Source: a virus. Taken from it: 22,039 nt of DNA. Numbering within the stretch: the stretch's first letter is position 1; every line of letters begins with the position of its first letter. Positions 3,226 through 18,336 of the stretch are shown piece after piece. A program made the translations under genes and the position numbers. The stretch covers positions 1-22,039 of IMG/VR virus record IMGVR_UViG_3300047586_000032. One strand, written 5' to 3'. The notes beneath the pieces were generated by a model. The model saw only the letters and a list, made by a program, of their open reading frames with translations, did not search any database and was not told the origin of the DNA.

Positions 3226-4719
3226 ATGGCTTCAGCCAAGAGTCGGAAGATAAAATCGCCCTGGAAGCGAGATGAGCGGGTAATAGGAGATGACGATCAC
3301 ATTGAACTCGACCTGGGCGACGGTCCGACCCTCCGCACAGACTTTCAACCGCTTTCGAGAGATGTGGAAGCGTTGAAGATGGGCGCGGAGCCTCCTGAGT
3401 ACGGCCCAATGGTTATGGGCCGTGAAATCCACCCCCGACACTTCCCCCAGGCAAGTTTTGTGCCTGCCTTCACCGCGAAGGAGCGGTATCTTGTTTTGCA
3501 CGGCGGAGCCGGTGCTGGTAAGTCTATAGCAGCGGCCCAGAAAGTGATAATGAAAAGTCTGAAATATCCCAATTCTATGACCGTCGTGATGCGTGCGTGG
3601 TCGCCTCGACTCCGGGTTACTGCGTTCCGTATGCTCAAGGAAATCTTAAATGAAAACATGATTCCCTACCACGTCAACAACACCACGATGAAGATCGACT
3701 TCCCGAACGGGAGCACGATTCATGGGATGGCGATTGTTGATTCACAGGGCGGCGAGATTGCAGCCTCAATCAAGTCACTGACTGATATCAGCGGGATGTG
3801 GATTGAGGAGCCAACAGAGCTTTCATTAGAGGAGTTTGAGATGATCCGGATGCGACTCAGAGGTAGAGAGCTTCCGGAGGGACAGTCGCGACAATTAATC
3901 CTGACATTCAACCCGATTGACCGAAACCACTGGCTGCACGAGATGTTCTTTAACGAGATGGATGACCCGATGGAAGATGAGGACACGCGGATTTTCCACT
4001 ACACCTTTGAGGATAACGAGTTTATTGATGCGGCATACAAGAAGATGCTCCTCGGAATCAAGGATCAGAACCGCTATAACGTTTACACGCTTGGCAAGTG
4101 GGGCGAACTGGGTGCGATGGTCTACGATCGGTGGAAGCAGTGGGACTTTAACTCACAGGAGATGAACTTTGACACAATTATTGGAGGAGCTGACTTCGGG
4201 TTTTCTCACCCGTCTGCCTTTTGTGTACTGGGAATTGACGAGTCGAAACACGAAATATACGTCATTGATGAGGTGTACCAGCACGCGGCTCTCAACAGAG
4301 ACTTCATCGACTCAATCAAATCTAAACTCAAGCAAAACGGAATTGAGACTACTATCCCCATCTACTGCGACGCCTCAGAGCCAGCCTCAATACAAGAGAT
4401 GCGGCAGCATGGGCTGAACACGATAGCGGGACAGAAGAACATCCTTGACGGCATATCCTCGGTTCGACAGTACTGCGTTCGTGTGCATCCTCGTTGTGAC
4501 AGTTTCCTTAGCGAAATCAGTGGCTATACGCGCCAGAAAGACCAGCAAGGCCGCGTTTTAGAAATGCCGAACAAAAAGGCAGGATTCGATGATCTTATGG
4601 ACGCTATGCGCTATGCGGTTTACACCTACTCATTATCACAAAAACTCTACACGACCGTCATTCCGTCGATCCGGCGCGGCAGAGGGAGATACGATTTTAT
4701 TGAAATGGCAGGAGAGTAA
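3226..4719 (+). CDS. terL: Terminase large subunit (PBSX type)
   Basis: 497 residues. This motor pumps DNA into the prohead and cuts it. ATPase domain: Walker A GGAGAGKS (93-100), Walker B MWIEE (191-195) and coupling motif TFNP (227-230). Nuclease domain of RNase H fold: Asp323 in GADFGF, Asp382 in YCDASEP, and Asp456/457 and Asp459 in GFDDLMDAMRYA. All key parts are present and the length is normal, apart from a roughly 60-residue leader before the ATPase core. The ribosome site is weak (only GGA 14 bases ahead). Its stop overlaps the portal start by one base (TAATG), the usual order. The TTFNP-like region and overall motif spacing match the PBSX-type terminases. Confidence 0.95.
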   Translation: MASAKSRKIKSPWKRDERVIGDDDHIELDLGDGPTLRTDFQPLSRDVEALKMGAEPPEYGPMVMGREIHPRHFPQASFVPAFTAKERYLVLHGGAGAGKSIAAAQKVIMKSLKYPNSMTVVMRAWSPRLRVTAFRMLKEILNENMIPYHVNNTTMKIDFPNGSTIHGMAIVDSQGGEIAASIKSLTDISGMWIEEPTELSLEEFEMIRMRLRGRELPEGQSRQLILTFNPIDRNHWLHEMFFNEMDDPMEDEDTRIFHYTFEDNEFIDAAYKKMLLGIKDQNRYNVYTLGKWGELGAMVYDRWKQWDFNSQEMNFDTIIGGADFGFSHPSAFCVLGIDESKHEIYVIDEVYQHAALNRDFIDSIKSKLKQNGIETTIPIYCDASEPASIQEMRQHGLNTIAGQKNILDGISSVRQYCVRVHPRCDSFLSEISGYTRQKDQQGRVLEMPNKKAGFDDLMDAMRYAVYTYSLSQKLYTTVIPSIRRGRGRYDFIEMAGE

Positions 4720-6275
4720 TGATGGCTCCGAATAAGAGGAGAAGAAAGCCAGGGGCCGGAAGGCCACGATCGGAATTTGGCGAGATAGGCAAGCCTGGAC
4801 TAAGGGAATTTGGCGGCTATATCAGAGAAGAGTGGCTGCCTGCACTAACAGGCCGTCAGGGCGTCCGTGCGCTCAAGACCATGATCGGCACGGATGCAAC
4901 GGTAGCCGCAATCGGCACCGCTACAAAGATGGCCGTGCTGCAGGTGAACTTCTTTATGCAGCCAGGGGGCAAAAGCGCCAACGATCAGAAGGCGTCTGAT
5001 TTTATCGAGCATTGCATCTTCGATTGGCTTGACACATCATGGCAGCAGAAACTCCATGAGATCCTGACCTGTGGTGACTTTGGCTGGTCTTTATTTGAAA
5101 AGGTCATGGAACGCCGAGATGACGGCACAATAAGCTGGGCGAAGTGGGGATTCAGGCCACATGAAACCCTATTGAGGTGGGAACCTGACCCGAACACCGC
5201 CGAGATCATCGGCTTCAACCAGCAGATTTATTATCCCGCTTCAGAGGTTCTGTTGATCCCGCTGGAGAAATGTATTCATTTCACCCTTAACGCGACCAAA
5301 GGCAACCCAGAAGGCACCAGTTGGTATAGAGGAGCCTATATGGCCTGGTATGCCAAGCATAAGCTTGAGCTCATTGAGATGATCGGCATTGAGCGGAACA
5401 TGGCCGGTCTACCCGATATCAAGATCCCTGCCGAGAACTTCCTGCCTAAGAACAAGAAGGTTCTGAAAGTCTATCAGGACATGGCAGATAACGTTCACCG
5501 AAACGAGGATGCGACGTTCGTTACACCATCGGACGTGTGGCCAGGGACAAGCATCCCCATGTTTCAGATTGGATTGGTAGGCGGCCAACAACTGACCACC
5601 AGGGGGACGGGGCTGCCTACCATTCAACCTATAGCACGATATCAGGCGGAGATTGCGCGATGTCTCCTTGCCGACTTCATGTTGCTTCCACAGGGCGGAC
5701 CAGGCTCATACGCCCTGTCGAGCAACAAATCAAGCTTCTTTGTAATGTTTATCGAATCTATCTGCGATCTGATCTGTGACACGATCAACAAGCAGGCGAT
5801 CCCTGAGCTCGTTGAGCTCAATCAGTTCGGTGATCTCACCGATATGCCAAAACTTGTGCATGGGAACGTCTCGAAGACTGACGTAGGCGTGCTAGGCAAG
5901 CTCCTCGCAAACCTCTACAAGGCCGGAGCGGACTCGATCTTCCCGAACGATGATCTGCTTAACGCGGTTATGGAAGAGGCGGGGCTGCCGGATGTGGACA
6001 CATCACAGAATGAGCTCGAGGTAGAGAAAGAAAAGAAGGCTATGGCCGCAGCGACGGCAGTTACACCAGAACAGGCTGAATGGGTAGAAACAGGCCCAGA
6101 CGGAAAACCAGTACCAGTTCCGGCAAACATTAAGCGAGCGGCGCCTGCTGCTTCAGCGATGAAAGCACAGCCGCCTCAGAACGTGGCGCAGACGAAAGAG
6201 ACACAGGCACAGCAGAAAAAGCGAGCAAAGAAACCGACTCGCGCACAGGATCGCAGAAATTTAGGTAATATGTAA
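4719..6275 (+). CDS. Portal protein (DUF935 / Mu gp29-like)
   Basis: 518 residues. It would form the dodecameric ring through which DNA enters and to which the neck attaches. Recognised by the family's wording across 30-330: GTDATVAAIGTATKMAVLQV, CGDFGWSLFEKV, a RPHETLLRW strand and the WYRGAYMAWYAKHKLELIEM stretch, followed by GLPTIQPIARYQAEIARCLLADFM. The C-terminal 90 residues are charged, Ala/Pro/Gln-rich and probably disordered. GGAG lies just before the overlapping TAATG start; a second in-frame ATG follows directly. Stands between the large terminase and the protease as expected. Confidence 0.9.
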   Translation: MMAPNKRRRKPGAGRPRSEFGEIGKPGLREFGGYIREEWLPALTGRQGVRALKTMIGTDATVAAIGTATKMAVLQVNFFMQPGGKSANDQKASDFIEHCIFDWLDTSWQQKLHEILTCGDFGWSLFEKVMERRDDGTISWAKWGFRPHETLLRWEPDPNTAEIIGFNQQIYYPASEVLLIPLEKCIHFTLNATKGNPEGTSWYRGAYMAWYAKHKLELIEMIGIERNMAGLPDIKIPAENFLPKNKKVLKVYQDMADNVHRNEDATFVTPSDVWPGTSIPMFQIGLVGGQQLTTRGTGLPTIQPIARYQAEIARCLLADFMLLPQGGPGSYALSSNKSSFFVMFIESICDLICDTINKQAIPELVELNQFGDLTDMPKLVHGNVSKTDVGVLGKLLANLYKAGADSIFPNDDLLNAVMEEAGLPDVDTSQNELEVEKEKKAMAAATAVTPEQAEWVETGPDGKPVPVPANIKRAAPAASAMKAQPPQNVAQTKETQAQQKKRAKKPTRAQDRRNLGNM

Positions 6276-6280
6276 GCCCA

Positions 6281-6286
6281 GAGGTG
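6281..6286 (+). promoter_or_regulatory. Ribosome site that places the protease start at 6293
   Basis: GAGGTG ends 6 bases before ATG 6293. An upstream in-frame GTG at 6284 lies inside this motif, so the ATG is the better start. Confidence 0.7.
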
Positions 6287-6292
6287 GGTCAC

Positions 6293-7999
6293 ATGACAGA
6301 TGAAACCGACAAATATGGAATGCAGATGGCGGGGATGACCATCACACCTGGGCTCCTCAGCCAATTTAACGACCGACAACTCTCACAGGAGTGGGAGATG
6401 CACAACGAATGGTCCAAAGACGCGACAAGAATGCAAAAATCAGCCAAGGCATATTCCACTCCTGGTGAGATGATTTTTGACGAGTTGCAGCGAAGAGGGA
6501 TCAGAATTAACCTGCGTCTTCCATTAGTTCCTAAAGACTTCCGAGTTGAAGGAACTGAAGAAGAACTAGCCAAAAGCGGCCTTCCGATGGCGGCTGCAGG
6601 AACCAGCTGGGATGCTGGTGCTGCACGCGCTGCGCTAAAGAAATGGGCCACCAAAGGCGATGGAACGATTGACGTTGCAAAATATGGTAGGGCTTTTCTA
6701 TTTCACGGAACGCCAGCTAATCTGCTCGGGTCGTATAAGTTTCCTATAGCGACCATTATCAATGGGAAATTAACCGCTGTACCTAACGCGATCCGTGCGG
6801 CAAAAGGTCGTTTGGCTGGAAGCAGTATTCCTGCCGCTGCTAAAGCACGGATCGCGTCTATCCTAAGTGGCTATTCGAGCCGATTGGGATGGAACGATCT
6901 TCACAAGTCAGACGTCAAACCACTACACCCAGTCATAAAAGATGACCAACCACTCGTTGCCTTCGTAAGCGGTTCGCCAGACTTTGACGAAGCAATGAGA
7001 AATGAACCGATTGTAGGCGTCGCGGGCAACATCTTTGCCAAGCGTTACCTCGAGCCTCTTGGCCTCGCTAAAAGCGACGTGGCCATACTTCACCAAGTCC
7101 CCGTCCTCCTCAAAGGATTCGACGGCGGTGCTCGAGGACCCACACCACAGGAAGTCCTTGAATGGAAAGAGTGGGTCGCTGACGAGCTTGATACGCTCGC
7201 TCCAGACATAACAATCGCGCTTGGCCATGGGGTCGGCGAGGCCGTACCTGCTGACTTCACGCTACCGCACCCCAAAGTCCTGATGAAATCAGGCTCACAG
7301 ATGCGCGACGCCTACACTACGGATGAATTGAACCGCAAACTAGGGGTTATTAAGGAATATCTCGATGAACGTCGAGAAGCGGCTGTTAGCGAGGTGCTAA
7401 CGCCGGAAGAACCGAATAACGGTAATCAGGGCGAACAGTATATGAGGAAGTCCGCCCTTGATAACAATGAACATCAATTCAGCTTGTTTACGGCTGATGA
7501 ACCAGATAAACGGAATCTGATCTTCGGGGTTGTTTATAAGCCGGACACACTCGACTCGCAGAAACAGTGGGTGCCTCCAGAAGTATTGGAAGATGCAGCC
7601 CAATGGTTTATGAAGCATAGTCAGTTGACGGATACCGAACATCAGGAACTGGCCGGAGCTAGGATTGTTGAAAGCTACATCGCGAAAACCGACGAAAATA
7701 TCTACGGACGCGATGTTCCGAAGGGCAGCTGGGCTGTTACCACGGAAGTTAGCGATGACCTGAAAAAGGACATCGACAACGGCCTGTATAACGACTACAG
7801 CATGTTCGGGAAGTCGATGGCACTTTATGGGGCTGTTCCGCCAGGCTATGAACCTGCGAGTGACGAGGAGCGCATGGCTATTGCCAAGTTGGAGAAGGTG
7901 AGGCCAGTCACGCTAGGATTTGTCAACGATGGCGCGGCTAAGGAACCGTTCATAATCGTGAAGTGCTCAGGCGCCGATTGCCCATTGGAAAATGCTTAG
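6293..7999 (+). CDS. XkdF-type maturation protease with embedded uracil-DNA-glycosylase-like domain
   Basis: 568 residues in three parts. (a) About 100-200: GTSWDAGAARAALKKWA and a following LFHGTPANLLGSYKFPI region, a pattern I know from phage prohead-protease proteins. (b) About 219-362: a domain that reads like a family 4-type uracil-DNA glycosylase, with EPIVGVAGNIFAKRYLEPLG, PDITIALGHGVGEA and LPHP; the usual GEAPG first motif is replaced by SGSPD, so activity is uncertain. (c) About 405-517: XkdF-like domain (FGVVYKPDTLDSQKQWVPPE, then NDYSMFGKSMALYG), the putative serine protease that processes the prohead. The next gene is a scaffold-like protein, as expected for a protease. The glycosylase-like insertion is the odd feature. 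Confidence 0.85.
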   Translation: MTDETDKYGMQMAGMTITPGLLSQFNDRQLSQEWEMHNEWSKDATRMQKSAKAYSTPGEMIFDELQRRGIRINLRLPLVPKDFRVEGTEEELAKSGLPMAAAGTSWDAGAARAALKKWATKGDGTIDVAKYGRAFLFHGTPANLLGSYKFPIATIINGKLTAVPNAIRAAKGRLAGSSIPAAAKARIASILSGYSSRLGWNDLHKSDVKPLHPVIKDDQPLVAFVSGSPDFDEAMRNEPIVGVAGNIFAKRYLEPLGLAKSDVAILHQVPVLLKGFDGGARGPTPQEVLEWKEWVADELDTLAPDITIALGHGVGEAVPADFTLPHPKVLMKSGSQMRDAYTTDELNRKLGVIKEYLDERREAAVSEVLTPEEPNNGNQGEQYMRKSALDNNEHQFSLFTADEPDKRNLIFGVVYKPDTLDSQKQWVPPEVLEDAAQWFMKHSQLTDTEHQELAGARIVESYIAKTDENIYGRDVPKGSWAVTTEVSDDLKKDIDNGLYNDYSMFGKSMALYGAVPPGYEPASDEERMAIAKLEKVRPVTLGFVNDGAAKEPFIIVKCSGADCPLENA

Positions 8000-8013: not shown

Positions 8014-8020
8014 TGTGTAT

Positions 8021-8776
8021 ATGGGCAAAAAAACCCAGGACACGCCTTTAGACCCGTTACTGGCCAGTCGAATTGAAGAGATTCTTTCAAAGGCTTCGCT
8101 AGACGATGCAAGCAAAGACAGAGCACGAATTGGATTTGCTGCGCTTGCACCGATAGCTGACCAAGCTGATGTTATGAATAGTCTCAAGGACTTGCTCAGT
8201 GGCGAGATTGACGTTCCACCGACGACTGAAGAGCCGTTGGCTAAGAGCGTTACAAAGGACACAGAAAAGTCCGAGGAGATTAATATGGAAAAGAGCGACA
8301 TTTCAGAGAAAGTCTCTGAGATTGCCGACGAAGGACTCCGCACGGCTGTAGAAGCCATGCTCAAGAAGAGCGCGGAGGACGAGAAGGCAAAAGAGGAAGC
8401 TCTAGCAAAAGCAGCAAAGCTTGAAGACGAGAAGAAGACCGAGGAGTTTATGAAAAAGGCATCTGAATTTTCGCACCTGCCTTCTGAAGGACTCGGAGAG
8501 CTTCTAAAGAGCATTGCTGACAAAGCTCCGGAAGAGTATGAAAAACTCGAGGAGATGCTTAGAGCGACTGAGACGAACATGGCCAAATCTGCCGTTTATA
8601 AGGAGATTGGCAAGGAACAATACAAGTCGAGCAAAGTAGAAGAGACAGTGAACGCTCGCGCTGCTGAGATAATGGCTAAGTCGGAAGGCAAGGTCAATAA
8701 GGTGGCAGCGAAAGCGTTGGCATGGACGCCTGACTCCTACCAAGAGTGGCTTGACGAAGAGAAGAGGGGATCGTAA
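8021..8776 (+). CDS. Scaffold-like protein
   Basis: 251 residues, very rich in Lys, Glu and Ala, with long coiled-coil-like stretches (about 100-185) and only scattered hydrophobic positions. Position between the maturation protease and the decoration and major capsid genes is where scaffolds sit: they guide coat assembly and are then cleaved away. The C-terminal 35 residues (KVNKVAAKALAWTPDSYQEW) are more ordered and could be the coat-binding end. An internal ATG at 8285 has its own ribosome site, which could yield a 163-residue short form. Stop overlaps the next ATG (TAATG). Assignment rests on composition and position. Confidence 0.7.
   Translation: MGKKTQDTPLDPLLASRIEEILSKASLDDASKDRARIGFAALAPIADQADVMNSLKDLLSGEIDVPPTTEEPLAKSVTKDTEKSEEINMEKSDISEKVSEIADEGLRTAVEAMLKKSAEDEKAKEEALAKAAKLEDEKKTEEFMKKASEFSHLPSEGLGELLKSIADKAPEEYEKLEEMLRATETNMAKSAVYKEIGKEQYKSSKVEETVNARAAEIMAKSEGKVNKVAAKALAWTPDSYQEWLDEEKRGS
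8273..8287 (+). promoter_or_regulatory. Internal ribosome site and start inside the scaffold gene
   Basis: GAGGAG (8273-8278) precedes an in-frame ATG (8285) by 6 bases, as good as any start in the window. Use would give a C-terminal scaffold of 163 residues starting MEKSDISEKV. Nested scaffold starts are known in other viruses (lambda C/Nu3). The same bases also encode Glu-Glu, so chance is possible. Confidence 0.35.
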
Positions 8777-9555: not shown

Positions 9556-10566
9556 ATGCAACCAACGCAATCAATGATTCACACGAATGTTCCAATCACG
9601 GAATTTTCGGAAATGTACCGACAGCAACAGACCGCCTTTATCGCGGATCGACTTGCACCCAATCTTGGCCTCCCTAACAAGACTGACATCTACTACACGT
9701 ACAGTCAGGCTGACTTCATGAGAGATGAAGTCAAAGAGAGGGCCGCTGGTACTGAATCACAAGGAACCGAATACGGACTAAGCTCAAGCGATTATAAGTG
9801 TCAGAGGTGGGCCTTGCACAAAGACCTGACCGACGAAGACGTTAAGATCGCTGACTCGATGCTTGACCTCCACCAGGACGCGACGCAAATCCTCATGGAT
9901 AAGATGTTGCTCAAGAGAGAAACCAACCTTATCAGCACTGTCTTCAAGACAGGCGTTTGGACGGGAGCTCTTGCTGGGACTGACATCACTGCAGCTGCCC
10001 ACGGCAACGAGTCGTGGACCAGTAGCAGCCAAGTGGTTTGCCTTTGGAGCGACAAGACCAACAGTACTCCAGTGACCGATATCGTGAATGCGTGCTACGA
10101 CCAAGCTGAGATCACAGGACAGATGCCTAACACGCTTGTTCTTGGTCCCAGAACGTTCCTAGCACTCAAGAACCACCCTGATATCAAACAGCAATATATG
10201 TACACCAGTCCGGACTCCATCACGACCGAGATGCTTGCTCGCGTATTGGAGATCGACACGGTTCTTGTACCAACAGCAATCAGCAACACCTACAAGAGGA
10301 AAGTAGCTGGCACGAAGTCTATGTCCTATCTGTGGGGCAAGGACGCGCTTCTATGCTATGTGGCTCCGAGAGTCGCCCTAAAGACGGCTACCTCGATGCT
10401 GACCATAACATGGAACAACGCACCTGGCGCAGCCGCAGGCGGACAGGCCATCAGCACAATACCGATACCTGAGAAGAAAGTCGAGAGAGTCGAAATTGAG
10501 GCTTTCTGGACTCAGAAGGTTATCGGGGCTCCGATGGGCGCTTACTTCAGCAGCGTAGTGAGCTAA
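9556..10566 (+). CDS. Major capsid protein (HK97 fold)
   Basis: 336 residues. It forms the capsid shell. Features of the fold: N-terminal arm (about 1-75), spine-helix region with LHKDLTDEDVKIADSMLDLH (about 90-115), the peripheral domain, and the axial stretch CYDQAEITGQMPNTLVLGPRTFLALKNHPDI (about 178-208), which is the typical middle-of-protein pattern. The C-terminal part (VERVEIEAFWTQKVIGAPMGAYFSSVV) is the closing strand. No N-terminal scaffolding domain of the HK97 kind is seen; a separate scaffold gene is present instead. The strong ribosome site and the flanking genes support the call. Confidence 0.9.
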   Translation: MQPTQSMIHTNVPITEFSEMYRQQQTAFIADRLAPNLGLPNKTDIYYTYSQADFMRDEVKERAAGTESQGTEYGLSSSDYKCQRWALHKDLTDEDVKIADSMLDLHQDATQILMDKMLLKRETNLISTVFKTGVWTGALAGTDITAAAHGNESWTSSSQVVCLWSDKTNSTPVTDIVNACYDQAEITGQMPNTLVLGPRTFLALKNHPDIKQQYMYTSPDSITTEMLARVLEIDTVLVPTAISNTYKRKVAGTKSMSYLWGKDALLCYVAPRVALKTATSMLTITWNNAPGAAAGGQAISTIPIPEKKVERVEIEAFWTQKVIGAPMGAYFSSVVS

Positions 10567-13354: not shown

Positions 13355-13711
13355 ATGGAGTATAAGGAGTGCGAGCGCTGCTTTGGGTACTGCTGTATAA
13401 GCAGCCCTTCGCACCGTTATACTGCCTTGACCGAAGTTGATATACGTGCTATAGCGAAGCATTTGAGAATCCCCCTAGAGCGCTTTAGGGAAGAGTATGT
13501 AGTGGAGACTCCAGAAGCGCTCATGTATGACCACGCACCATTTGCGAGGGCGCACATCAAGCGCCTTCCGTCCTCCCCTTGTCCTTTTTTACGCTCAGGA
13601 CTGTGCGGGATCAATTCAGTTAAGCCTGAGATATGCCGCAATGCCAAGCCGGTTCCATTAATGGGTGACGTGACGTGCGCGATGTGGAATAAAGTAAGAG
13701 CTGGAGTATAA
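13355..13711 (+). CDS. YkgJ-family cysteine-cluster protein
   Basis: 118 residues. CERCFGYCC near the N-terminus (Cys 6, 9, 13, 14) and CPFLRSGLC (about 76-84) followed by KPEICR (about 90-95) match the YkgJ family of zinc- or iron-chelating cysteine-cluster proteins; family members are thought to bind metal, but the exact role is unknown. It is embedded among virion-surface genes, overlapping the giant protein's ATG (TAATG at 13709-13713). That, and its hidden ribosome site, suggests co-expression with the giant protein, perhaps for modification or assembly; this is inference. Also Cys109 (TCAMW) near the end. Confidence 0.75.
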   Translation: MEYKECERCFGYCCISSPSHRYTALTEVDIRAIAKHLRIPLERFREEYVVETPEALMYDHAPFARAHIKRLPSSPCPFLRSGLCGINSVKPEICRNAKPVPLMGDVTCAMWNKVRAGV

Positions 13712-16700
13712 TGGCTGGCGTTCAAACCTTCATGGGGTCGTTCACGGCCAAGACCGGAACGGGAACGCAGCAAACCACCGGCATAGGTTTCACTCCAGCA
13801 GCGATTATCTTCTGGTATGATTTTGGCACCACAACCGCGAATACGTGGCACAATACGGCAGGGCAAGGACACGGTTTTGCGGCGTTCGATGGAACAAACT
13901 ACACGAACGCTGGAACAAGTTACGCCGCAGAACTCTTCGCTTCCTCTCACGCTTGCGTAAACCAGTCCTTCTCAAGCGGTAGTTATTGTCTCTATGCTGG
14001 TAACTATGCCGGAACAGCGCAAGTTGAGGCAAGTCTGACTGCCGTGGCAAACGGTTCGTTCACCCTTACCTATGCCGTCGCCGCTGCATCAGCGTTCACA
14101 GTTAATTATCTCGCTATCGGTGGAAACTGCACGAAAGGATACGTCAAGAAGTGGGCATTTCCAGCATCCGGTACAACTCAGGATGTCGCCGTAACCGGCG
14201 TAGGATTCAAACCGCAATGTGTCCTCCACGCGAGCATTGATGAGGGTACTGACCCCGATACAAGTGGATGGGCCGTCATTGCTTTCGGCGCGATGGATGC
14301 AGCCGGAAACCAATGGGCTACATATAACGTTCAAAATTCTGCTTCATCAGCGGTAGCTAACCGCGTTCAAACCAACGCGAGCTGTGTCTGGTGGACTGAC
14401 GGTGAAACGAGCGTCAGTGAAAAAGCGACCTACAAAAGCATGGATACTGACGGGTTTACCGTCAATTCCACTGCAAATGACGGACAAGCCACGGTGATCT
14501 ATTCACTTTGCCTCTATGATGCGACGCCAAACGAGATGGGCGTGGGATCATGGGCAAAGACAACCGGAGGCAACGGATCAACGGATGCCGTCACCACGCC
14601 GGTTACATACCAGATCAACGGCATGATGTATTTCACCGACTCTTACACCGTCAATACTGCGCTGCAAACCGGCGGACGTTGTAGTATCGGTGGTTCCGAC
14701 GGAACACATCTCGGCAGCATCGTCGAATCTACCAAGACCGCAGCGGCCACTCCTCTCGCATATGGTGCGTTTTACAACAATAATGCGCTTGTTATCGCAG
14801 ATAATGATACAAAAACGAATAATTCACTCCTAACGGCGAACACACTCAACGCAAACGGCACCGTCACGGTGACATGGGGAACCAGCGCAGCGGTGGCGAC
14901 GCAGGTTTTATATGTCGCGTTCGGCGTCGGTGCTGGTGATGTAACGGTTGCGGGAGCCACAGCAACATCCAGCTTCAACGCCAACGCCCCTTCATTACTT
15001 GTCAATGATGTTGACGGCGCGACGGTCACAAATTGTCAAGTTGAATACATTGGCACCAGTTGGCCAACTTCAGGAACCGCCGTCACCAATATAGGGCAGT
15101 CTACAGGGAACAACGCGACTGCCACAGCGAATGAATATTATCTTAATCCGAGCAGCCAAGCTCAGGCGTGGAGAATCCCATTAGGAGCCAATGACATAAT
15201 CTCGACGGCACGTTGGGCGGCCATTGATAACCCAACGAGTCTTACCTTTGAGGTTGGGTTCAGCATTGACGGCACGATTGAAGCAGGGCGGCATTATTTA
15301 CTCGCTAAGGTAACTACAGCCCCTGCCGGTTGGGGCGTTTGGTTCAGTGATGATGGATCACTCGCTTGTTCAAGAGACGGAACATCGAGCTATCGCTTTT
15401 ATTTGACGACTGGATCGCTGGTTGCGAACGGCCATAAATATGTCCTTCAGGTCCACTGGGATATGTCGGCGACCACGAACGCGCCGGTAATGCGCCTATC
15501 AACTGATGGAGCCGCCTTCACGACGCCTTCTCTTACAGCGTCGGGAACCGCGACCGCGTGGGTCAACGATTCGACCAGCGGAACGTTATCCATTGGCTTC
15601 TCGACCAGCTATCCACGAGCTATTACGGTCTACTATTGGAGGCTGCATATCGGCGTCATTCTCTCCGACGCGGTATTAAACGCGAATGATACTGCGAGCA
15701 AGTGGAGGCTTTATGATGCAAGAATTGCCGCAGCCACCGCTACCGCGAACTTCAACGCTAATGCGGGAGTAATTTCTGTAGTAACTCCATCCGTTACTGC
15801 TACCTCAAACTTCAACGCTAATGCGGCATTGATTGGAGCTGCAACAGCAGCAGCGACTGCTACCGCTAACTTCAATGCGAACGTTCCGTCTCTCGTTTGG
15901 GACGTAGTAACAGCCGCAGCTACCGCAAGCTTCGAGCTTGATGCCAACGCTGGACTGGTTGGAGCGGCTACGACCGCACCCGCTGCGACCGCTAGCTTCA
16001 ACGCGAACGTTCCGTCTCTCGTTTGGGATGTGGTAACGACAGCGGCAACAGCAAGCTTTGAGTTTGATGCAAATGCTGGGTTAGTCGGCGCCGCAACAAC
16101 CGCACCTACAGCTGAACTCGACTTCAATGCCAATGCCGCTGTGATAAGCGTCGTAACTCCAGCAGCTACCGCTACTGCAACATTCGACGCTAATACAACC
16201 GCAATCAACGTAGGAACTGACGCTATAGCGGCCACTCTGACGTTCAATGCGAATGTCCCGACGGAGGAATGGGACGTAGTGGTTCCGGCAGTTGAGGCCA
16301 TTGCTAACTTCAATGCGAATACCACGGCGGTTGATGTAGGAACTACGGCCCCTACTGCTGCCGCGACCTTCAATGCCAACGTTCCGTCGGCAGTCTGGGA
16401 TGTAGTAACGACGGCTGCAACCGCTTCCGTAACCTTCAATGCAATCTCGCCGCTGGTAGGCGTAACCACCCCTGGAGCGACAGCTGAACTAGACTTCAAC
16501 GCCAATGCTGCGCTAATTGACGTAGTAACTGCCGCAGCAACGGCAGCACTTACGTTTAATGCTAATGTTCCAACCGAGGAATGGGACGTAGTTGTTACAG
16601 CGGCAACAGCCATTGCTAACTTCAATGCGAATACCACAGCTGTAAATGTAGGGACTACCAGCGCAGCAGCTCAGCTCAGCTTTAATGCCAATGTCCCCTC

Positions 16701-18336
16701 TACAATCTGGGACGTCGTAATATCAAGCGCCACAGCCACCGCGACGTTTAACGCCAACGCGGGGCTGGTTGGCGTAGGCACTTCGAGCGCTACAGCTGAG
16801 CTTGATTTTAATGCTAACGTCGCATTGATAGGCGTCGGAACGCAGGCAGCGACAGCGACTTTCGAGTTTGATGTAACCGACTGGACTGTAGTTACCGCAT
16901 ACGATGTCGTTGTCACCGCAGCAACGGCAGTGGCATCCTTTGCGTCGAATGCGCCATTAGTAGGCGTCGGTGCTATTGGAAGCACAGCGCAGCTGAGCTT
17001 TAACGCTAATGTAGCTAGTGCAGTCTGGGATGTGATAATCTCAGCCGCTACAGCCTCTTTGGAGTTTGACGCAAACACAGGCGTCGTAGGCGTCGGGACC
17101 ACAAGTCAAACTGCACAGCTGAACTTTAACGCGAATGCAGGATTAGTTGGCGTCGGCCTCGTAGCAGCAACAGGCACCTTCCAGTTTAATGCAAACATCG
17201 TTGCGGCAGCTGAAGATGTCGTGATAATGGGCGTCACCGCAGAGATGACGTTCGCTGCTAATTCACCTTTGATTGGCGTCAGCGTTCTAGGAGCAGCTTC
17301 GCAGTTAGGCTTCAATGCCAACGTAGCGAACGCCGTGTGGGACGTGGTAACTGAGGTTCCCCCAGCTCTCTTGGAATTTAATGCCAATACATCAATCGTA
17401 AGCGTGGGGGTGCTAAGTGAAGCTGCCCAGCTAGAGTTTGCCGCAAATACCCCATTGATTAGTGTTATTGTTACTGGCGCCACAGCACAAACCCAGTTTG
17501 ATGCTAATGTAGGCTTGGTTGGCGTAGTGGTTCTCGGACAAACTGCAATCGCTACCTTCGATGCGAATGTCCCCATAGCGGCGCTGGATGTGATTATTGC
17601 CGGAGCGACAGCGGTGATGCCGTTCGACGCGAATGCGGCACTCATTGGTGTAGGTACTCTTGGTTCTACAGCTGAACTCACATTCAATGCAAACGCGGCA
17701 AGCGTGACCTGGGATATCCTAATCGCAGGGGCAACTGCTTTTCTGGACTTCAATGCAAACGCTTCTGTCGTAGGTGTAAGCACTCCAAGCGCGACTGCCA
17801 CGGTTCAGATGGATGCGAACGCGGCCCTAGTTGGCGTGAGCGCTGTAGGAACATCGGCACAGTTCACTTTCGGCGCAAACTCAGGACTCGTAGCGGTCAG
17901 TGTATTAGGCACCACAGCCACTTTCGAGTTTGAAGCTATCATCGGTTTCGTTCCGCAGGACATATTCGTAACCGCAGCTACAGCAATTCTTGAGCTTGAA
18001 GCGAATCCTGCATTGGTCGGTGCAGGCGTGGAGGGCGCTACAGCTGAGCTTGATTTTGACGTTAACGCGCCGATTATCAGTGTAGGCGTCAATGGCGAAA
18101 CGGCGATCACAGGGTTTACCGCAAATGTTCCAGTAGTCACCATTGAGTATATCGGCACGGTGATTCATTTGATTGGAACCTCGTCTAGTACGCACGCGGC
18201 TACAGGATCAAGTGCTGAAGCGGTCGAACTGGAAGGAGATTCGACTGAAACAGCTGGCGTAGAAGGATTGACTTCAGAAACTATTAAGCTCGAAGGTGAG
18301 TCATTAGATACGGTTGAGTTAGAGGGGACAAAATGA
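13711..18336 (+). CDS. Giant repeat-containing surface/fibre protein, 1541 residues
   Basis: Layout: residues 1-410, beta-rich virion-type domains (GIGFTPAAIIFWY, GVGFKPQCVLHASI); about 412-432, a lone repeat (ATATSSFNANAPSL); about 442-670, a lectin-like (LamG/concanavalin-like) region with HKYVLQVHWD and APVMRLSTDG; about 673-1484, about 39 tandem repeats of 20 or 22 residues with consensus TA-x-x-x-FNAN-x-x-LVGVGT; about 1485-1541, an acidic end with ELEG repeats. A 22-residue variant with WDVV alternates with 20-residue ones. The protein is nearly free of Lys/Arg in the repeats. A long beta-structured fibre shaft carrying a sugar-binding head is my best reading, with host attachment as likely role. 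ATG overlaps the stop of the YkgJ-like gene. No cysteines or signal peptide in the repeats. Confidence 0.75.
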   Translation: MAGVQTFMGSFTAKTGTGTQQTTGIGFTPAAIIFWYDFGTTTANTWHNTAGQGHGFAAFDGTNYTNAGTSYAAELFASSHACVNQSFSSGSYCLYAGNYAGTAQVEASLTAVANGSFTLTYAVAAASAFTVNYLAIGGNCTKGYVKKWAFPASGTTQDVAVTGVGFKPQCVLHASIDEGTDPDTSGWAVIAFGAMDAAGNQWATYNVQNSASSAVANRVQTNASCVWWTDGETSVSEKATYKSMDTDGFTVNSTANDGQATVIYSLCLYDATPNEMGVGSWAKTTGGNGSTDAVTTPVTYQINGMMYFTDSYTVNTALQTGGRCSIGGSDGTHLGSIVESTKTAAATPLAYGAFYNNNALVIADNDTKTNNSLLTANTLNANGTVTVTWGTSAAVATQVLYVAFGVGAGDVTVAGATATSSFNANAPSLLVNDVDGATVTNCQVEYIGTSWPTSGTAVTNIGQSTGNNATATANEYYLNPSSQAQAWRIPLGANDIISTARWAAIDNPTSLTFEVGFSIDGTIEAGRHYLLAKVTTAPAGWGVWFSDDGSLACSRDGTSSYRFYLTTGSLVANGHKYVLQVHWDMSATTNAPVMRLSTDGAAFTTPSLTASGTATAWVNDSTSGTLSIGFSTSYPRAITVYYWRLHIGVILSDAVLNANDTASKWRLYDARIAAATATANFNANAGVISVVTPSVTATSNFNANAALIGAATAAATATANFNANVPSLVWDVVTAAATASFELDANAGLVGAATTAPAATASFNANVPSLVWDVVTTAATASFEFDANAGLVGAATTAPTAELDFNANAAVISVVTPAATATATFDANTTAINVGTDAIAATLTFNANVPTEEWDVVVPAVEAIANFNANTTAVDVGTTAPTAAATFNANVPSAVWDVVTTAATASVTFNAISPLVGVTTPGATAELDFNANAALIDVVTAAATAALTFNANVPTEEWDVVVTAATAIANFNANTTAVNVGTTSAAAQLSFNANVPSTIWDVVISSATATATFNANAGLVGVGTSSATAELDFNANVALIGVGTQAATATFEFDVTDWTVVTAYDVVVTAATAVASFASNAPLVGVGAIGSTAQLSFNANVASAVWDVIISAATASLEFDANTGVVGVGTTSQTAQLNFNANAGLVGVGLVAATGTFQFNANIVAAAEDVVIMGVTAEMTFAANSPLIGVSVLGAASQLGFNANVANAVWDVVTEVPPALLEFNANTSIVSVGVLSEAAQLEFAANTPLISVIVTGATAQTQFDANVGLVGVVVLGQTAIATFDANVPIAALDVIIAGATAVMPFDANAALIGVGTLGSTAELTFNANAASVTWDILIAGATAFLDFNANASVVGVSTPSATATVQMDANAALVGVSAVGTSAQFTFGANSGLVAVSVLGTTATFEFEAIIGFVPQDIFVTAATAILELEANPALVGAGVEGATAELDFDVNAPIISVGVNGETAITGFTANVPVVTIEYIGTVIHLIGTSSSTHAATGSSAEAVELEGDSTETAGVEGLTSETIKLEGESLDTVELEGTK
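15727..18162 (+). repeat. About 39 tandem 60-66 bp protein-coding repeats
   Basis: The repeats encode FNAN-centred units. At the DNA level most copies differ at synonymous sites, but some are recent copies: 26 bases at 15877-15902 recur exactly at 16003-16028 (126 apart, one 20+22 pair), and 29 bases at 16297-16325 recur at 16609-16637 (312 apart, five repeats). Confidence 0.85.

Follow-up and report, generated by a model that had tools for sequence, protein, structure and literature searches.

A divergent uracil-DNA-glycosylase-superfamily domain in the presumed head protease of a clade of tailed viruses

What would a relative of uracil-DNA glycosylases (UDGs) be doing inside a presumed capsid protease? 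The question is raised by a virus record of 22,039 bases (IMGVR_UViG_3300047586_000032), termed here the window, meaning the whole stretch of DNA that was analysed. A preliminary description of it had proposed that a UDG-like domain is embedded at 6941–7378 in an XkdF-type protease, as a repair fold recruited into a capsid maturation protein, possibly to hold DNA or probe it for uracil in assembly, or as a dead fold used for packing. We know of no head maturation protease with a DNA-repair fold, and the open-licence literature yielded no paper joining XkdF, prohead protease or head maturation protease to UDG or DNA glycosylase, nor any on XkdF with a DNA methyltransferase or on the SPO1 polymerase with a UDG domain. 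The available portion of PMC2147016 names a phage UDG gene, with no fusion. A conserved UDG-derived domain in a head protease would tie capsid maturation to the handling of DNA.

The fusion gene and its head module

The head module of the window (Table 1) runs in the order small and large terminase subunits, portal, fusion gene, scaffold-like gene, one more gene and major capsid protein, the XkdF-bearing fusion gene being placed between the genes of the portal and the major capsid protein.

Table 1. Coordinates of the fusion gene, its domains and motifs, and neighbouring head genes in the window
Feature	Coordinates	Strand	Basis or remark
Terminase large subunit	3226..4719	+	Sequence match
Portal protein	4719..6275	+	Sequence match
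Fusion gene, 571 aa: N-terminal region, domain X, UDG-like domain, XkdF protease domain	6284..7999	+	ORF, translation, Pfam
N-terminal region, aa 1-99	6284..6580	+	Without significant family match; 31/99 columns invariant in 6 sequences
Domain X, aa 100-206; W-D-x-G-A-A-R ... K-Y-G-x-x-F-L ... Y-K-F-P-I-A-T	6581..6901	+	Alignment; 24 other viral contigs
UDG-superfamily-like domain, aa 220-344	6941..7315	+	Pfam, NCBIfam, PDB-sequence profile search, profile-profile
Motif A position, SGSPD	6968..6982	+	GE(A/G)PG in family 4
P-I-V-G-V-A-G loop	7007..7027	+	Equivalent of P-F-V-G-x-A-G in aligned family-4 proteins
H-Q-V-P	7091..7102	+	Position of the uracil-binding Asn in T-N-x-V
Motif B position, HPKVLMK	7268..7288	+	HPS(S/A)(L/V)(L/V)R in UdgX
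XkdF protease domain PF14550, aa 403-511	7490..7816	+	Pfam, alignment; D450, H453, S506 kept
Likely separate scaffold gene	8015..8776	+	Comparison with L073, whose relative is fused behind XkdF
Major capsid protein	9556..10566	+	Sequence match

The embedding in an XkdF protease protein was borne out by Pfam, which matched PF14550 to the 571-residue protein at 77.9 bits (cut-off 24; E 8.7e-22). The Asp, His and Ser columns given in Table 1 are invariant in all 11 aligned XkdF sequences, five of which are the UDG-domain clade and its cousin L073, and from these residues the protease domain adjoining the UDG-like domain looks intact. This C-terminal XkdF domain is also the sole protease domain that Pfam detected in the protein. 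For the proposed prohead-protease-type N-terminal part no support was obtained: the first 99 residues have no significant family match and are followed by domain X, for which a search of the PDB sequences gave no match.

Three other genes of the window were observed in passing. A 1541-residue protein at 13711–18336 carries many repeats of the type T-A-x-x-x-F-x-A-N (by eye) and has no Pfam match at E ≤ 0.01; a thioredoxin-like protein with CPFC and an apparent N-terminal membrane anchor is encoded at 1156–1665 on the minus strand, opposite to the head genes; and a small protein with a putative CxxCxxCC metal-binding domain lies amid the structural genes (13355–13711), with a similar small protein, judged by eye, in the record G003 (21868–22254).

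Homology of the central segment to uracil-DNA glycosylases

In the whole protein, Pfam matched PF03167 to residues 220–344 at 28.7 bits (E 1.6e-6; curated cut-off 24.3), and the UDG segment searched alone reached 32.0 bits (E 1.5e-7). The cut-off was passed by all five distinct versions of the domain (window 28.7, L003 34.9, L027 30.9, L016 29.3 and L017 34 bits). A profile of these five sequences, searched against all PDB sequences, gave 35 matches at E ≤ 1, the best being 4zbx at 1.3e-8; 28 of the 35 were UDG4 or UdgX chains, all at E ≤ 0.001, and the other seven were unrelated and weak (E ≥ 0.03). One of the 28, 1l9g, is named 'conserved hypothetical protein' and aligns like TM0511. Profile–profile comparison with eight UDG-family proteins, drawn from phage and plasmid records, returned a probability of 97.6% (E 4.6e-12 for this single comparison) over 124 columns that include motif B.

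The controls behaved in the same manner. When all loci collected by that stage were scanned in six frames (frames of at least 60 residues) with the profile of the eight UDGs, E ≤ 0.01 was reached only by UDG loci and the clade's family. The domain was also shuffled 5000 times with its composition preserved, and the top shuffled score on this profile was 9.4 bits, against 32.0 for the window frame. The family profile recovered eight of the ten fetched UDG loci at E ≤ 0.01 (L052 and L054 were missed). Among the NCBIfam models, those of archaeal and family-4 UDGs ranked first, far under their cut-offs (26.2 versus 250 and 26.1 versus 125.3 bits).

Structure prediction gave a mean pLDDT of 41.1 for the domain, modelled from five sequences, and of 30.5 for the whole protein, modelled from six; this low confidence is probably due to the scarcity of sequences. 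Foldseek with the low-confidence domain model returned 14 matches at E ≤ 10 and none at 0.001, the top match being a UdgX at E 1.8 and ranks 1, 3, 4 and 5 all being UdgX; we place no weight on these matches. A chance resemblance, with no homology behind it, could be argued from these models and their non-significant Foldseek matches, and from an identity of 23% in the profile alignment; the Pfam, NCBIfam, PDB-sequence, profile–profile, six-frame and shuffle results speak against it, and we regard it as highly improbable. Judged by sequence profiles, residues 220–344 are a divergent UDG-superfamily domain.

The UDG-type assignment first made for 6941–7378 is thereby upheld, and significance in a profile search, named beforehand as one of its tests, was obtained with Pfam, the PDB sequences and profile–profile comparison. 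The strings on which the assignment had been based are all present in the translation (SGSPD at residues 229–233, EPIVGVAGNIFAKRYLEPLG at 241–260, PDITIALGHGVGEA at 307–320 and LPHP at 327–330). The extent had to be trimmed: 6941–7378 corresponds to residues 220–365 and locates the domain correctly, and the homology spans only residues 220–344 (6941–7315).

Altered motifs, constraint and candidate functions

According to the available text of PMC10359453, motif A reads GE(A/G)PG in family 4 and GEQPG in UdgX; the UdgX Glu serves to activate the nucleophilic His, or a water molecule when that His is mutated, while Asn N91 and the motif-B His hold the uracil and the motif-B Arg helps to position it. 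The five versions of the present domain all depart from this set. Motif A is SGSPD or EGSPD in each of them, which extends to the family the altered first motif pointed out initially, and the family-4 form GE(A/G)PG occurs in none; where the uracil-binding Asn would be expected there is a His with a Gln next to it (H-Q-V-P); no hairpin separates the A-L-G strand from motif B; and the latter motif is HPKVL(M/T)K, with its His and Pro kept and its Arg replaced by Lys. Family-4 UDGs possess Fe-S cluster Cys, and no Cys occurs in the domain stretch of any of the five versions; the CRPP Cys is also missing from two haloarchaeal members of the UDG comparison set. By motif, the domain is not a family-4 UDG; the UDG catalytic set is gone, and in sequence the helix-entering motif-B loop is largely kept.

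Constraint on the domain was estimated from dN/dS, which was 0.17 for window–L003, 0.05 for L016–L017, 0.20 for window–L027, 0.25 for L003–L027, 0.12 for L027–L017 and 0.06 for L016–L029. The resulting range of 0.05–0.25 covers six of seven pairs that are not independent of one another, window–L016 being saturated and some of the others having dS above 1; saturated dS values, for which the ratio prints as 0.000, were left out. Set against XkdF, the domain has the smaller ratio in three usable pairs and the larger one in the remaining three, and the constraint is therefore similar to that on the protease and not clearly stronger. Motif columns are invariant more often than the rest of the domain (19 of 23 versus 45 of 103; Fisher p 0.00095), also when only the three motifs defined in the literature are counted and the loop is left out (13 of 16 versus 51 of 110; p 0.014). 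Since these columns were picked after the alignment had been viewed and also hold the fold, the excess is moderate evidence, and in an alignment as small as five sequences the invariance of motif columns need not mean ligand binding.

These measurements bear directly on whether the domain could be a catalytically dead fold that acts in the protease precursor as a spacer or packing element only. Such a role would be compatible with the loss of the UDG catalytic residues, with the absence of the domain from the cousin L073 and with the even split of the dN/dS comparison against XkdF. Purifying selection at the ratios above argues against decay, and the motif columns are conserved in excess; we consider a dead fold rather unlikely. 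Of the two possibilities raised at the outset, recruitment of a repair fold is supported as far as UDG homology is concerned, with DNA holding and uracil testing as conjectural roles, and the dead packing fold is disfavoured by selection and motif-column conservation.

The reading that we tentatively put forward, at somewhat below even chances, is a non-canonical DNA-engaging domain in a procapsid-bound protease precursor, which probably would not excise uracil. The UDG-derived domain lies between domain X and XkdF of a presumed head maturation protein, and it keeps most of the motif-B loop, with which UDGs penetrate the helix and grip the flipped-out base. Because the motif-A acid and the Asn are lost and motif B is mostly kept, we infer that the domain probably binds DNA or a nucleotide and leaves uracil in place. 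Being built into the precursor of the protease, it would be expected inside the procapsid, going by what is generally known of head proteases; there it might touch the genome as this enters, or self-cleavage might release it so that it stays with the DNA. A descendant of a repair enzyme has perhaps been re-used in this manner for DNA handling in assembly or delivery. As a counterpoint to DNA engagement, the change of the motif-B Arg to Lys and the missing hairpin could mean that DNA binding, too, has been lost; the invariant GSPD and HQVP could equally form a new catalytic site.

The last possibility amounts to an enzyme, a glycosylase or a related hydrolase, that is active through a rebuilt site, is directed at another base or a nucleotide and is used in, or delivered by, the capsid. 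It would be consistent with pocket positions that are invariant and unlike those of UDGs (G-S-P-D and H-Q-V-P) in five versions, from proteins down to 57% identical, and it has a precedent in Brig3, which the accessible text of a preprint (PMC13160076) describes as excising 5hmC and assigns to the UDG superfamily; the core of Brig3 was compared by the same authors with alkyladenine glycosylase as well (PMC13160076, same portion). On the other side, the domain has other residues in place of the motif-A Glu and the Asn that serve the UDG mechanism, and none of five related records, which are possibly fragments, yielded a dUTPase, a thymidylate synthase or a dCMP deaminase, so that there is no sign of uracil or modified-base metabolism in them. 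We deem a rebuilt glycosylase unlikely. The probability is lower still for a virion-borne, base-sensing or base-modifying UDG descendant that would check or treat the genome at packaging or after ejection by means of a new active site GSPD ... HQVP ... LPHPKVL. A defined residue set is offered here for testing.

Two further candidates were examined and set aside. A uracil-DNA phage was rejected on the same count of zero in five records for each of the three enzymes, and a defence-system reading on PADLOC, which matched none of three proteins.

Distribution, exchange and comparison with known systems

Relatives were sought in scans of viral contigs with the UDG-like domain, the whole protein, the portal, the terminase, domain X and a DNA pattern as queries. 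The whole domain is present in 11 contigs (the window, L002, L003, L012, L013, L014, L015, L016, L017, L027 and L029), which hold five distinct domain sequences and all belong to one virus clade; L011 and L024, whose sequence ends before the domain, were left out of this count. The protein of L002 is identical to that of the window, and the two contigs may come from one virus. Over the whole protein, L003 is 77% identical to the window, and L027, L016, L017 and L029 are 57–58% identical to it. Among 16 portal relatives, all eight close ones with a complete protease gene (portal at least 67% identical; L010, which is the L003 contig, L012–L017, and L018, which is the L002 contig) carry the UDG-like domain, and in six distant ones (portal 30–33% identical) nothing matched the whole protein. 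In L012–L017 and L029 the UDG-like domain is followed by another copy of domain X, and one copy is present in L027, L003 and the window; in the protease protein of L016 (9573–11621), and likewise of L017 and L029, the two copies flank the UDG-like domain.

Beyond the clade, phage records contained no near DNA match to the window and no match to domain X at E ≤ 0.01, and the UDG-like domain gave two matches at E ≤ 0.1 among 50,697 phage records, annotated as DNA polymerase I and as a hypothetical protein. Among 72,556 plasmid records it gave 79 weak matches at E ≤ 1, the best 20 of which are UdgX or unannotated. A prophage and host search of genome contigs found no relative among 37 stretches retrieved with the UDG-like domain or 140 stretches retrieved with domain X. 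Two 67-kb cousin records, G003 and G004, have one UDG-family match each. As separate observations, both encode a Ku-family end-binding protein (G003 43511–44047, locus L096; G004 17624–18157, locus L097), and G003 carries on its minus strand (22307–23449) a papain-family cysteine protease (PF00112) whose tail gives an Ig-like match below threshold.

The cousin L073 (contig IMGVR_UViG_3300014839_000057) has the gene order of the window and is 64% identical to it in the portal, 53% in the terminase and 44% in the capsid protein. The protease protein of L073 is made up of domain X, XkdF and a scaffold portion joined to them and lacks the UDG-like domain, and since the cousin thus has both flanking domains and not the central one, the UDG-like domain is an accessory module. 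By comparison with L073, it was gained by one clade of tailed viruses or lost by one cousin, as far as sequences can tell; gain in the clade is the simpler reading and loss in L073 is possible. UDG profiles matched none of 24 proteins with domain X outside the clade (L070–L093, including L073), some of which are near-duplicates and one of which, L075, is cut at its end. Many of these carriers look like head proteases, the Pfam check covering L073. The comparison of XkdF proteins for the same insertion, suggested initially, found it in none of six named phages (Pfam) and not in L073; the domain was seen only in the one clade of viral contigs.

Within the clade the segment has been exchanged. 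In steps of 60 bases, L029 is 92–100% identical to L016 over residues 17–196 and 93–100% from residue 517 onward, whereas over about residues 200–376 it follows L017 (87–100%, versus 73–90% to L016); the 124-residue domain of L029 and L017 is identical in protein, and the second domain X of L029 differs from those of L016 and L017 alike. The dS between L016 and L017 reaches 1.15 in the domain, compared with 0.12 in domain X, 0.10 in XkdF and about 0.1 in the N-terminal region. A specificity module for a host or viral factor, swapped between viruses, would account for this dS contrast and for an L029 that is near L016 in its N-terminal part, first domain X and XkdF and carries the L017 version of the domain. 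However, the L016 and L017 versions are identical at 111 of 124 positions, and mosaicism is also seen at the portal end, in the genes for decoration and capsid proteins and in the second copy of domain X in L029; because other parts are mosaic too, the segment was exchanged with edges near those of the domain, which does not imply special selection for its exchange. Such a module is, in our view, decidedly unlikely. As a separate observation, the terminase large subunit of L017 (5397–7949) has 851 residues, compared with 492 in L016; an insertion of intein type begins at about residue 99 and includes a LAGLIDADG endonuclease (Pfam Hom_end_hint and LAGLIDADG_3).

The XkdF or Peptidase_S78_2 proteases of named phages (Lactococcus 50901, Enterococcus EG-TP1, psiM100 and others) share the invariant Asp, His and Ser columns with the window, and as in the window their gene lies a short way 5' of an annotated capsid or structural gene. 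Unlike the window protein they have no UDG match, and their XkdF domain starts at residues 12–46 in five phages and at 124 in psiM100, compared with 403 here. The XkdF genes of a Lactococcus and a Rhizobium phage (L057 and L058) are annotated 'DNA methyltransferase', and were considered as a precedent for an enzyme–protease fusion; Pfam finds XkdF and no methyltransferase in the two, and the name looks carried over.

Among the UDGs, the best-scoring families are those of family 4 (TM0511; 4zbx; PF03167, NF040953 and TIGR00758), with which the domain shares the order of the motifs, the P-x-V-G-x-A-G loop, the A-L-G strand end and the HP of motif B. It differs from them in having (S/E)GSPD for GE(A/G)PG, His for Asn, no Cys, another loop after HQVP and no hairpin before motif B, in its fusion to a presumed head protease and in NCBIfam scores far under the cut-offs. 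UdgX is related to it by profile, but the window domain has neither GEQPG nor the KRRIH loop. In the SPO1-type DNA polymerase of Exiguobacterium phage vB_EalM-132 (L047), a domain of the UDG superfamily is likewise part of a larger phage protein; with Q-D-S-P it also has no GE(A/G)PG and no Asn, and it keeps the HP, a parallel change. It is joined to a polymerase instead, retains the hairpin and is 25.5% identical to the window domain. The present family adds to the SPO1-type polymerases a second class of phage proteins that contain a UDG domain with changed active-site motifs.
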